The translations under genes were made by a program, and so were the position numbers. From assembly GCA_902634455.1 (NCBI GenBank), contig CACPKQ010000001.1, positions 124,001 through 188,000 of the forward strand: a DNA stretch of 64,000 nt, read 5' to 3'. The notes beneath the pieces are model-generated. The model did not search any database. It saw only the letters and a list, made by a program, of their open reading frames with translations, and was not told where the DNA came from. This stretch comes from an uncultured Pelagibacteraceae bacterium (GTDB lineage: Bacteria > Pseudomonadota > Alphaproteobacteria > Pelagibacterales > Pelagibacteraceae). Below, one piece after another: positions 24,716 to 55,041 of the stretch; position 1 is the stretch's first letter; every line of letters begins with the position of its first letter.

Positions 24716-25594
24716 TTATTTACATAAAAATTTATATGACAAAATTTTATAAGCTAGCTTAGCAGTCAAAAAGTTATAAGAATTAAATCCTTTAATAGGA
24801 GATAGTTCATTTATATCCGCACCAACAATATTTGAATTTTTTGATGCTATTTTTATAATTTTTAAAGTTTCATTCCAAAACAATCCACCCGGTTCTGGAG
24901 TACCAGTAGCAGGCATAATACTAGCATCGAAGCCATCTACATCAAATGTTAAATAAACATTTTTATTTTTAATTAATTTTCTAAATTTTTTTAAATTCCA
25001 ATTTGATTTATCTTTTGCCCAAAAAATATTAATTCTAGAAGAATTTTTATTTAGATAAGAAACTTCATTTTTTGAAATATTTCTTATTCCAAAGGAGATT
25101 ACAGAGACATTTTTATAATCAAGACATCTTCTAATCGCGGATGCATGAGAGAACTTTTCACCATTATAACTTTCTCTTAGATCTGCATGTGCATCAAAGT
25201 GTAATAAGCATAATTTTTTATACCTTTTAACAAATGGAGCAATACACCCTGGAGTAATAGAATGCTCTCCCCCGAAAGTTATTGGAAATAGTTTTTTCCG
25301 TAATATTTTTTCATTAATGTCAGACATTTTTTTAAGAGCTTTATTAATATTTTTATTAATTTTAAAAGGTTTTAATGTTTTGATTCCTATTTTTTTATAT
25401 GGTTCACAATGCAATTCTTCATCATATAATTCAACTTGATGGGAAGCTTTAATAATTTCTTTTGGACCATTTTTTGTTCCACTTCCATAACTAACTGTTT
25501 TTTCTAAACCGAAAGGAACAACTACTACTTTTTCTTTAAAATTAAATGTATTGTCAATTCCAAGAAAACCTATTTTATTTGATAAATATTTCAA
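24716..25594 (-). CDS. speB: Agmatinase/arginase family ureohydrolase
   Basis: GGEHSIT, LHFDAHADLRE, TFDVDGFDAS metal-binding motifs. Confidence 0.9.
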   Translation of the reverse strand: MKYLSNKIGFLGIDNTFNFKEKVVVVPFGLEKTVSYGSGTKNGPKEIIKASHQVELYDEELHCEPYKKIGIKTLKPFKINKNINKALKKMSDINEKILRKKLFPITFGGEHSITPGCIAPFVKRYKKLCLLHFDAHADLRESYNGEKFSHASAIRRCLDYKNVSVISFGIRNISKNEVSYLNKNSSRINIFWAKDKSNWNLKKFRKLIKNKNVYLTFDVDGFDASIMPATGTPEPGGLFWNETLKIIKIASKNSNIVGADINELSPIKGFNSYNFLTAKLAYKILSYKFLCK

Positions 25595-25597
25595 TCT

Positions 25598-26641
25598 TTA
25601 TCCAAATATCTTTGTAAGGTTTTTTTTATTTCTATTTTTCCAGTAGCCTTTATGGTAGGCATCACTTGCTATTAATGGTAAAATGCTAGTTGCTTCTGCA
25701 AAAACCATTTGTTCTTTAGTCACATCAACCTTTCCCCAAGAACTAGCTTCTTTTAAAGTAGAGCTACTACAAGCCCCATCTCTTGAGTCTGCAACTGTAA
25801 TTTGGATTGCATACTTATGCATATCAACTTTTTTTCCTAAAAGTTCAGCACAAATAACAGTATCTTGAATGAAATTTTTAGGAACACCTCCTCCAATCAT
25901 AAATAAACCAGATCCCTTTGATCTAATTTTTATTTCCGTAAGTTCACGAAATTCTCTTATTGAATCTATTGTTAAATGTTTTTTTTGATTTTTTTCTTGA
26001 TGCATAACTAATCCAAATCCAGCACTAGAGTCCGTAAAAGCTGGACAAAATATAGGAACTTCATTGTCATAAGCAGTTTCAATTAGAGAATTTTTTTTCT
26101 TTGCATTTTTTTTAAGATATTTGCCAATTTCATGAATAAATTCTCTAGATGTATAGCTTCTAGGTTTTAAATTATCTGCTATTTCACATATAATTTTATC
26201 ACACATTTGAAGTTCATCTTCATCTATGTAGGTGTCATAAATTCTATCAATATAATTTTTTCTTAATTCGCTATCGTCTTGAAATTGAGAACCTTGATAA
26301 TGTTTAAAACCAAGCGCTTCAAAAAAATCCATATCTATAATAGAAGCACCTGTTGCCACCACAGCATCAACCATATTGTATTTAATCATGTCTCTATATA
26401 TGTGCATACAGCCACCAGCAGATGTTGATCCAGCTAAAGTTAAAAAAATAGTGCATTCTTTATCTTTTATCATTTCATTAAATATATTTGATGCATTTGC
26501 TGTTTCCCTAGAAGCAAATGACATTTTTTCCATTGATGAAATTATTTTTCTTGCATCAAAAGAAGTTATATCGATATGTTCTACAGGCTTATTTAAAAAA
26601 TCTTTTTTACTATTGTGTCCAAGGTTTTTTTTATCTGGCAT
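25598..26641 (-). CDS. Deoxyhypusine synthase-like protein
   Basis: LAGSTSAGG, SSAGFG and ADSRDGACSSSTLKEASSWGKVD, matching the catalytic-Lys (WGK) region of the DHS family. Confidence 0.9.
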   Translation of the reverse strand: MPDKKNLGHNSKKDFLNKPVEHIDITSFDARKIISSMEKMSFASRETANASNIFNEMIKDKECTIFLTLAGSTSAGGCMHIYRDMIKYNMVDAVVATGASIIDMDFFEALGFKHYQGSQFQDDSELRKNYIDRIYDTYIDEDELQMCDKIICEIADNLKPRSYTSREFIHEIGKYLKKNAKKKNSLIETAYDNEVPIFCPAFTDSSAGFGLVMHQEKNQKKHLTIDSIREFRELTEIKIRSKGSGLFMIGGGVPKNFIQDTVICAELLGKKVDMHKYAIQITVADSRDGACSSSTLKEASSWGKVDVTKEQMVFAEATSILPLIASDAYHKGYWKNRNKKNLTKIFG

Positions 26642-27820
26642 TTAGGCAACAAGAAACTCGCTATCAGTCTCTTTGTTATACATCGACATAATTGGACTAT
26701 CTTCAACTTCATAAATACTATCAGAGAAAAACCCATTAAAATGAGTTCTGAAAGTTAATCCATATGCGCCTAGTTGACCTAATTCTATGTAATCATTTTC
26801 TTTAATATTATTTGGCAATACAAAAGGTCCTTTCATATAATCCATGCTGTCACAAGTTGGACCATAAAAATCAAAAGATGTCATTTTTTTTGATACTAAT
26901 CTACCATTTGTAATTAATTTTGAAGGGTAAACAATATTAGGAACTCCAGCATCAAAAAGCGTTCCATAAGTTCCATCGTTTATAAACAATTTTTGTTTTT
27001 TTCTTAAATTTACTTTAACTATTGTTGAACCACTTTCGGCAACTATTGCTCTACCAGGTTCACATATTATTTCAGGTTTTTTTTCAAGTTTTAAGCTTTC
27101 TAATTTTTTTTTAATCTCTTCAAAGTAGTTATCCAATGATTGTGGAATTAAATCAGGATATATTGTTGGGAAACCACCTCCTACATTAATATAGTCAGGA
27201 ATAATTTTAGTTTTATTAATAATTTTTCCAATTTCCAATATTCCTTTTGAATAAGAGATAGGATGCATGCATTGTGAACCTACATGAAAGCTTAATCCTG
27301 TTTTTTTAGCATAATTTTTTGTTAATCGAAATAATCCTATCGCTTCTGATGTTGGTGCTCCAAATTTTTTTGATAAATCTATTTCAGCATGTTCATTAGA
27401 TACCGAAACTCTAACAAACAATTCTAAATCTTTTGCTTGATTAGTACTTTCAATTATTTTTATTAATTCGTCTTTTGTGTCTAAAGAAAAAGTTTTAACT
27501 CCATGTTTAAAATAAGCATCTTTTATGCTGTGTCTATCTTTTATTGTATGCATATAAGAACATTTTGCTTTTGGACTAATTTTTTTAATTGTTTCAATTT
27601 CTTTAATGGACGCAACATCAAAGTTTCTTATGCCACTTTCAATTAAAGTTTTTAATATCTCAGGATGTGGATTTGTTTTAACAGCATACAAAACTTTTCC
27701 TGGAAACTTGTCTTGGAAGAACTTAGAAGCAACATTTATAGAATGCTTCCTTATACAATAAACCGGTTCATTTGGTTTCAGTTGATGTATTAACTCTTCA
27801 ACTGATTTAAATTTTTTCAT
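26642..27820 (-). CDS. Fold-type III PLP ornithine/lysine decarboxylase
   Basis: YAVKTNPHPEIL PLP-Lys motif, ICEPGRAIVAESG, GPTCDSMDYM. Confidence 0.93.
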   Translation of the reverse strand: MKKFKSVEELIHQLKPNEPVYCIRKHSINVASKFFQDKFPGKVLYAVKTNPHPEILKTLIESGIRNFDVASIKEIETIKKISPKAKCSYMHTIKDRHSIKDAYFKHGVKTFSLDTKDELIKIIESTNQAKDLELFVRVSVSNEHAEIDLSKKFGAPTSEAIGLFRLTKNYAKKTGLSFHVGSQCMHPISYSKGILEIGKIINKTKIIPDYINVGGGFPTIYPDLIPQSLDNYFEEIKKKLESLKLEKKPEIICEPGRAIVAESGSTIVKVNLRKKQKLFINDGTYGTLFDAGVPNIVYPSKLITNGRLVSKKMTSFDFYGPTCDSMDYMKGPFVLPNNIKENDYIELGQLGAYGLTFRTHFNGFFSDSIYEVEDSPIMSMYNKETDSEFLVA

Positions 27821-27851
27821 TTAAGCTCCACAAAAAAAATTTACTAAAAAA

Positions 27852-27878
27852 AAATTTGCATAACTGTTATGCAAATTT
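27852..27878 (-). other. 27-bp perfect palindrome followed on the minus strand by a T-tract; terminator-like hairpin in the ODC-like gene leader
   Basis: AAATTTGCATAAC-T-GTTATGCAAATTT; on the minus strand it is followed by TTTTTT then AG, about 32 nt before the ATG. Confidence 0.75.
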
Positions 27879-27940
27879 CATATTAAATCAGCATTTATGA
27901 GATATAGAAGTAAATGTAAAGAAAATATTACTATTGAATC

Positions 27941-28531
27941 TTGTTTATTCATAACCATATAAAGATCATGCTTGAAGTTAAAAAAATCAGAAAATTAAGT
28001 GAATTTAAGGACAATTCACTACTAATCGTAGATGACGACAATCCATTCAGGGAACGATTGGCGAGATCTATGGAAAAAAAGGGATTTAAAGTTTCACAAG
28101 CTGAAGGTGTAAAAACCGGGATTCTTGCAGTTAATAACAATAATCCAACATTTGCTGTCGTGGATTTAAGACTTAATGATGGTAATGGCCTGGAGGTTGT
28201 AAGAAAAATTCAAAGTTCTAACTCTAAAAGTAGGATAGTTATGCTAACAGGTTATGGAAACATACCTACTGCAGTTGCAGCTATAAAAGAAGGGGCAATA
28301 GATTATTTAGCAAAACCAGCAGACGCTGATGATGTAGAAAAAGCATTATTAGCTGGCCCAAATACAAAAGCAGACCCACCTGAAAATCCAATGTCAGCAG
28401 ACAGAGTTAAGTGGGAACATATTCATCGAGTTTTTGAACTATGTAATAGAAATGTTTCAGAAACAGCAAGAAGACTTAAGATGCATAGAAGGACTCTTCA
28501 AAGAATATTGTCGAAAAAATCTCCTAGATAA
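27941..28531 (+). CDS. RegA/ActR/PrrA-type response regulator with Fis-like HTH (probable start at 27968)
   Basis: LLIVDDDNPFRERLARSMEKKGF; C-terminal NVSETARRLKMHRRTLQRILSKKSPR. Confidence 0.93.
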   Translation: MFIHNHIKIMLEVKKIRKLSEFKDNSLLIVDDDNPFRERLARSMEKKGFKVSQAEGVKTGILAVNNNNPTFAVVDLRLNDGNGLEVVRKIQSSNSKSRIVMLTGYGNIPTAVAAIKEGAIDYLAKPADADDVEKALLAGPNTKADPPENPMSADRVKWEHIHRVFELCNRNVSETARRLKMHRRTLQRILSKKSPR

Positions 28532-28544
28532 AATAAAATTTAAA

Positions 28545-29474
28545 CTAATTTTTTGTTAATCTTACAAAAACATCTTCTAAGTCAGCATCTTCCGTCGATA
28601 TATCAGATATTTTTATTTTTTGTTTATTTATAAAATCTATAAGTTCGTTTATATGTAACTTACTTCTTTCATAAGATACTATCAACTTATCTGCACTATT
28701 GTATATAATGTTTAATGAGTTTAAAGATTTATCAAAAATATTAACTTTTCCATTTAATAAAAATGTTACAATTTTAGTTTGTATTTTTTTTAACAAATTT
28801 TCTGTGCTATCTAAAGCTACTAAATTTCCATTATTTAGTATTCCTATTCGATCACATATTTCTTCAGCCTCTAACAAATAATGTGTTGTTAAAATAATTG
28901 TTACACCTTGTTTATTTAGTGATTTTACACTTTCCCATAATTTTTTTCTAAGTTCTACATCTACACCAGCAGTAGGTTCATCCAAAATTACAATTGGAGG
29001 CTGATGAACTAATGCTTTCGCAACTAACAATCTTCTTTTCATACCTCCGGATAAGCTTCTGCTGTAACTATTAGCTTGATTTTTTAGAGAAACCAATTCT
29101 AAGATAGTATCTGTAATTCTATCTTTTTTTTTTACACCATATAATCCTGCTTGCAGTTCAAGTAATTTTCTAGGACTAAAAAAAGGGTCTACATTAATTT
29201 CTTGTGGAACTACTCCAATGGATGCTCTTACTTGTCTTGGATTTTTATCAAGATTAAAACCCCAAACATCAATTTCACCCGAAGATTTAACCGATGTACC
29301 TGCCAATATATTTATAAATGTACTTTTTCCTGCTCCATTTGGTCCCAATAATCCAAAAATTTCACCTTCTTTCACTTCTAAGTTTAGATTTTTTAATGCA
29401 TGAATAGTTTTTGATCTATTTTTATAATAAATTTTATTTAAGTTTTTTACATATAAAACGTTTTTTTTGATCAT
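28545..29474 (-). CDS. ABC transporter ATP-binding protein (ABC-2 type)
   Basis: GLLGPNGAGKST, LSGGMKRRLLVAKAL, VILDEPTAGVD. Confidence 0.93.
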   Translation of the reverse strand: MIKKNVLYVKNLNKIYYKNRSKTIHALKNLNLEVKEGEIFGLLGPNGAGKSTFINILAGTSVKSSGEIDVWGFNLDKNPRQVRASIGVVPQEINVDPFFSPRKLLELQAGLYGVKKKDRITDTILELVSLKNQANSYSRSLSGGMKRRLLVAKALVHQPPIVILDEPTAGVDVELRKKLWESVKSLNKQGVTIILTTHYLLEAEEICDRIGILNNGNLVALDSTENLLKKIQTKIVTFLLNGKVNIFDKSLNSLNIIYNSADKLIVSYERSKLHINELIDFINKQKIKISDISTEDADLEDVFVRLTKN

Positions 29475-55013: not shown

Positions 55014-55041
55014 AAAAGGCGACCTAAAAAGATCGCCTTTT
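55014..55041. terminator. Bidirectional rho-independent terminator
   Basis: AAAAGGCGA-CCTAAAAAGA-TCGCCTTTT between convergent PRTase and AzgA-like genes. Confidence 0.85.

Follow-up and report, generated by a model that had tools for sequence, protein, structure and literature searches.

In a Pelagibacteraceae genome, the mRNA leader of a polyamine operon that starts with a decarboxylase gene almost certainly forms a real RNA hairpin, P1, as judged from its pairing pattern among relatives. Both the hairpin and the T-tract behind it are conserved, with compensatory changes in the stem, and we therefore regard them as an RNA element belonging to the leader of this operon. How the element acts is stated here with more reserve: our preferred but tentative reading is a cis-acting 5′ element of the operon which, in the Pelagibacter genus, works as a promoter-proximal intrinsic terminator and does so without a leader peptide. 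The initial annotation of the window (the whole stretch of DNA analyzed, 64,000 nucleotides) had proposed that a terminator-shaped hairpin lies in the decarboxylase's own leader and that attenuation is coupled to the translation of a 26-codon upstream open reading frame (uORF). The former part holds, the latter is not supported.

Results

The operon is encoded on the minus strand. Its first gene (26642..27820, ATG at 27820, Shine-Dalgarno sequence GGAG at 27826..27829) codes for an AR-fold basic amino acid decarboxylase (speC, ornithine/lysine decarboxylase-like; Pfam PF02784 and PF00278), whose best match among solved structures is the lysine/ornithine decarboxylase 5gjm (E = 7.5e-36); we take the enterobacterial speF enzyme to have another fold. 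The second gene (25598..26641) is deoxyhypusine-synthase-like (dys2) and reaches 574 bits, against a cut-off of 500, with NCBIfam NF002699, a model of 1,9-bis(guanidino)-5-aza-nonane (caldomycin) synthase. The third (24716..25594) is agmatinase-like (TIGR01230, 206 bits against a cut-off of 174). Noell et al. (PMC8437039) used the names speC, dys2 and speB for such SAR11 genes. In Thermus, an enzyme of the deoxyhypusine synthase type joins two agmatines to form caldomycin, en route to homospermidine (PMC10981699). Given the caldomycin-synthase-like and agmatinase-like genes, agmatine/arginine chemistry is as plausible as ornithine chemistry, and the label “ODC-like” for the decarboxylase should be held loosely. 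The second and third genes together (24716-26641, minus strand) suggest homospermidine via agmatine; discussions of SAR11 dys2 usually treat it as a putrescine/spermidine enzyme. On the opposite strand, a response regulator gene of the regA/actR/prrA type (27968..28531, plus strand, ATG at 27968; NF033791, 304 bits against 250) is divergent from the decarboxylase gene, as annotated initially, and this arrangement is found in 157 of 158 relatives.

P1 (27852..27878, minus strand) reads AAATTTGCATAA-CAG-TTATGCAAATTT from 27878 to 27852, i.e., a 12-bp stem with the loop CAG; the palindrome, its hairpin and the T run had been located correctly. No other perfect inverted repeat of at least 12 bp (loop 3-8) exists in the 64 kb. 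Six first-order Markov simulations yielded 0-2 such repeats each, none of them with a T run, and the expectation for the pattern, allowing up to 3 mismatches, is 0.14 per window. The folding energy of P1 alone is about −15 kcal/mol at 20 °C, and the 191-nt region around it has a fold z of −2.2. P1 ranks second among the intergenic hairpins of the window that are attached to a T run, behind a strong hairpin of the ordinary intrinsic-terminator-like type at 55017 (minus strand; AAAAGGCGATCTTTTTAGGTCGCCTTTT), the sole clearly stronger one of this kind.

The upstream regions of 158 loci were compared, with MAFFT used for the alignment; counts from this set are inflated by genome relatedness. The stem is present at the same position, after the promoter-like element and before the Shine-Dalgarno sequence, in 90 distinct Pelagibacter-genus sequences, with a mean of 10.9 of 12 pairs formed, and its sequence is wholly different between clades (e.g., AAATTTGCATA/TATGCAAATTT, AAAGTTTTTTAG/CTAAAATGCTTT and GGAAGTTACAAA/TTTGTAACTTTT). 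When the 3′ arms were swapped among 11 dissimilar stems, the observed pairing was never reached in 10,000 permutations. Unprompted, RNAalifold (39 sequences) returned exactly the P1 helix and nothing else, and in 8 of 11 pairs both partners have changed; the compensatory changes that the initial annotation had suggested looking for are thus present in the Pelagibacter genus. No conserved loop, aptamer or competing antiterminator was seen. The covariation score of P1 is 0.556, against 0.234 (sd 0.019) in shuffles, which ignore relatedness, and 0.061-0.197 with a slid partner, a control which does not; sliding by 1-3 columns also lowers the share of paired cells from 92% to 33.7-66.2%. Non-Watson-Crick cells comprise 38 G-U and 3 A-C, which identifies the RNA as that of the decarboxylase (minus) strand. 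At 20 °C, stems of the genus mostly range from about −6 to −18 kcal/mol, and the weak ones of several members (−6 to −9 kcal/mol) are not better than intragenic T-run hairpins.

A palindrome of perfect symmetry between divergent promoters might also be a DNA operator for a transcription factor, and the half-site TTGCATA/TATGCAA is indeed common to many genus members. However, we find this improbable. Unrelated stems occupy the same place in other clades and remain joined to the T run. That pairing survives this turnover of the stem sequence, with G-U tolerated on one strand only, speaks against an operator in the DNA; binding by a protein would call for a conserved motif.

Upstream of P1, a promoter-like element is conserved. 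The −35-like hexamer TTTACA (27915..27920, minus strand) takes the form T-T-(T/G)-A-C-(A/T) in all 108 distinct family sequences, across all genera, flanked by a conserved C and TT, and is followed after 16 nt by the −10-like hexamer ATAAAT (27893..27898, minus strand), conserved as (T/A)TAA(A/T)T at the same spacing. Transcription is predicted to start at about 27887-27885, approximately 7-9 nt before P1, which would make P1 nearly the first RNA made. L142-L146 and their relatives have two copies of AAAAAAACCTT, one covering the −10 region and the other within the 3′ arm of P1, and the inverse AAGGTTTTTTTT lies between them; in these loci, therefore, promoter DNA and leader RNA share repeats.

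The promoter-like element also bears on the uORF (27878..27958, minus strand; translation MVMNKQDSIVIFSLHLLLYLINADLI), whose reported coordinates and reading are accurate and which was supposed to decide, by being translated, whether P1 forms. In the window this frame does end exactly at P1, its TGA stop (27880-27878) reaching one base into the palindrome, and a 26-codon frame from the same ATG recurs in 5 of 126 distinct sequences; the others stop elsewhere or have no ATG. Codon-level conservation was searched for and not found in this set: the ATG is kept in most relatives, within a block adjoining the regA start, stop positions vary widely, and a comparison with L099, a relative that shares both start and stop, gives 1 synonymous and 14 nonsynonymous codon changes. 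The residues that are shared follow from the promoter DNA. The ATG of the uORF lies 38 nt before the −35-like hexamer, so the predicted transcript would not contain its start codon. The caution originally attached to the uORF was justified, since an ORF of at least 26 codons arises on one strand in 19% of simulated 147-nt regions with the same dinucleotide make-up and no clear Shine-Dalgarno sequence precedes the frame. Taking together the lack of conservation, the nonsynonymous changes and the start before the promoter, we judge this to be a chance ORF over a promoter and attenuation by its peptide to be very improbable, the least credible of all readings considered here. In the window, a mini-ORF at the foot of P1 reads ATG AAA TTT GCA TAA, and some relatives have a longer version; we dropped it as well, because its ATG is missing from a large clade (L011 type).

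The first U-tract (27846..27854, minus strand) has 9 U and overlaps the 3′ arm of P1, giving it the shape of an intrinsic terminator. A T7-9 run follows the stem directly in nearly all Pelagibacter-genus sequences, so that the conservation of hairpin plus T-tract anticipated earlier is borne out for this genus; in sister genera the run is absent from this place. Behind it, on the minus strand, come AG, TAAA, T8 (27839-27832), GGAG and the ATG at 27820. The element UAAAUUUUUUUU (27832..27843, minus strand) belongs to a genus consensus U8-(A/G)UUAAA-U8 that is near-invariant in the genus. The 10 bases at its beginning (27843-27834) complement decarboxylase codons 2-5, the strand UUAAAUUUUU matching AAAAAUUUAA, and this 10-nt complementarity is the longest between leader and start region among 65 genes of the window. 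At the start of the coding region, 27808..27817 (minus strand) reads AAAAAAUUUA, a possible partner of the UAAAUUUUUU strand in a putative stem, P2. Synonymous sites within the complementarity are fixed (F4 is TTT in 143 of 143 sequences and K3 is AAA in 143 of 144), and K5, with its third base immediately beyond the complementarity, is AAG in 38%. Because the strand hardly varies, P2 is beyond a covariation test. Outside the Pelagibacter genus, this match to the start region is weak in g5 and otherwise does not exceed chance; a family-wide start-region stem was accordingly discarded, its support being confined to this genus.

From these features we propose a mechanism in which transcription would start approximately 7-9 nt upstream of P1 and the hairpin would form almost at once. 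Running into U8, it would cause intrinsic termination around +40 with partial read-through, and this read-through would set the level of the polyamine operon with no leader peptide involved. The UUAAAUUUUU strand may additionally base-pair with the beginning of the coding sequence and dampen translation. We thus take the element to act once transcription has begun. Partial premature termination would be the likeliest direct effect of P1 in the Pelagibacter genus, and perhaps its main action, although we hold this only tentatively; protection of the 5′ end or control of translation comes close behind.

Sister genera were found by searches of the order and its genera. In each one examined, apart from weak cases in g3, a hairpin sits near the point where transcription is predicted to begin. 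Compensatory stem variants occur in g5 and g6 (AAGG/CCTT, AGGG/CCCT, AAGAG/CTCTT and AAGC/GCTT), and the g4 stem is GGCT/AGCC. In none of these sister genera does a U-tract follow the 5′ hairpin, and its role across the family therefore cannot be termination. The 5′ hairpin of g5 encloses the string U8-AUUAAA-U6, so this string must serve for something other than termination.

The start region of these relatives is also distinctive. An AUG stands exactly at −5, creating a tandem AUG-NN-AUG, in 33 of 34 cases in g5, 4 of 4 in g4, and the single cases in g2 (1/1) and g6 (1/1), and almost never at other offsets from −3 to −30. In the Pelagibacter genus a start at −5 is found in 23 of 100 (20 AUG and three TTG). 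Tandem starts are carried by loci L140-L146, L149-L153 and L186-L221, plus part of the Pelagibacter-genus loci. The first AUG opens an ORF of 11-12 codons (18 in g2/g4), e.g., MKCENLKQLTN; the conserved stop of the 11-codon overlapping ORF is not evidence, because the main frame dictates it. The window has CTT at −5 (27825-27823), with TGA in that frame, and no tandem start. Immediately before the decarboxylase start, 35 of 36 g5 loci (L186-L215, L141-L146) have their Shine-Dalgarno sequence within an invariant TGTGT..ACACATG hairpin, a candidate translation-control element.

It is quite possible that P1 is a 5′-terminal protective hairpin and/or part of a translation-control leader, and that the U-tracts are not a terminator. 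P1 would guard the 5′ end against pyrophosphohydrolase and decay of the RNase E type, or shape the start region, and the U-tracts would serve as single-stranded spacer, ribosome-binding or pairing sequence. The sister-genus hairpins with their compensatory variants, the restriction of the U-tract to one genus and the conservation of start-proximal features (the g5 Shine-Dalgarno hairpin and the common tandem starts) all speak for it. Protective hairpins usually leave a 5′ single-stranded stretch shorter than about 7-9 nt; the predicted stretch of roughly that length is longer than usual, though within prediction error. Without termination, it is hard to see why the stem should join U8 so exactly in the Pelagibacter genus.

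The terminator shape could alternatively serve the other neighbor. The ABC-transporter gene at 28545-29474 is convergent with regA, 13 bp separate the two ends, and no terminator-like site was seen at the junction (28531-28545). P1, at which the transporter gene points, might end antisense transcripts that run through regA. We regard this as highly unlikely: lying downstream of the promoter-like element, P1 would cut the operon's own transcript, and sister genera keep the hairpin without the U-tract.

The leader appears to be specific to this operon. R1, a covariance model of the leader, had matches in 15 of 15 genus genomes searched, where the strong match was mostly the decarboxylase leader; leaders with weaker AAAG-type stems (e.g., G012, G082, G135 and G156) scored near the R1 background. 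The other R1 matches inspected were all inside open frames, and P1 leaders are thus not a general SAR11 feature. Genome-wide searches for more copies, with the U8-RTTAAA-U8 string and with R1, gave in addition to this site only places that proved on inspection to be within open frames or to lack a plausible gene start after them. When the window, the site and nine relatives were scanned with Rfam, only sub-threshold chance matches were returned. The main texts of Meyer 2009 (PMC2704228) and Stav 2019 (PMC6429828) describe no decarboxylase or polyamine leader, and their supplements may hold it as an unnamed entry.

Discussion

Among known systems, the rimP-leader (Naville and Gautheret 2010, PMC2965389) resembles the P1 leader in having a hairpin and U-tract between a promoter (a predicted one for P1) and the first gene, and no competing structure seen. 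However, the rimP-leader stem is conserved in sequence, which suggests a protein (PMC2965389), whereas the P1 stem is free in sequence and only its pairing and place are kept; termination, a feature of attenuators of the rimP-leader type, is a tentative proposal for P1. In the manner of attenuators, P1 has its stem-loop directly before a U-tract. RNAalifold returned no alternative antiterminator, a structure that protein-controlled attenuators do not require. The 5′-stabilizing stem-loops of ompA and papA mRNA (references in PMC3997798) are near the mRNA 5′ end, as P1 is predicted to be, but U8 is fused to the P1 stem in the Pelagibacter genus.

The leaders of other decarboxylase genes offer further comparisons. 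The alphaproteobacterial speF element (RF00518) is also the 5′ leader RNA of an alphaproteobacterial COG0019 decarboxylase; it spans approximately 400 nt with extensive sequence conservation and, as is predicted for the P1 leader, starts near a putative transcription start (PMC1273637). Kinship with this RNA, raised initially as a parallel, found no backing, since RF00518 gave no match at the gathering score or at E up to 10. SpeFL (orf34) of enterobacterial speF, again in the leader of an ornithine decarboxylase gene, is a conserved translated peptide with two arginine codons and involves Rho-dependent termination (PMC6386406), while the SAR11 leader has no conserved peptide.

The odc1 (uORF-25-1) motif of alphaproteobacteria is defined by UUG-NN-UUG, the first UUG opening an 11-aa ORF, by an RBS inside the right shoulder of its P1, by a pseudoknot and by conserved nucleotides (PMC8632094). 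It is likewise the leader RNA of an ornithine decarboxylase-type gene, and many SAR11 relatives share the two-nt spacing of the starts; two class-level orthologues (L267, L268) have TTG-AA-TTG. The window is not an odc1 member, as it has no upstream start and its P1 has no RBS. Rfam scans gave no odc1 match even for L267 and L268, and since odc1 is apparently absent from the release scanned, this non-match is uninformative. We can conceive of the leader as a divergent, very AT-rich odc1 relative, in which the hairpin, U8-UUAAA-U8 (the strand that would close the start region) and the tandem AUG-NN-AUG form a polyamine-responsive switch, the Pelagibacter genus having gained a terminator tail and some clades, including that of the window, having lost the tandem start; this is an unlikely history.

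Few known organisms are as abundant as SAR11 bacteria, and the number of their regulators is believed to be small. They use polyamines as a source of nitrogen (PMC8437039). If our interpretation is true, this apparently unlisted leader RNA would be one of the few cis-regulatory RNAs known in SAR11, placed before a polyamine operon and testable in cultured strains. The tandem starts of its relatives, moreover, connect it with odc1, a motif of other alphaproteobacteria that is itself unexplained.
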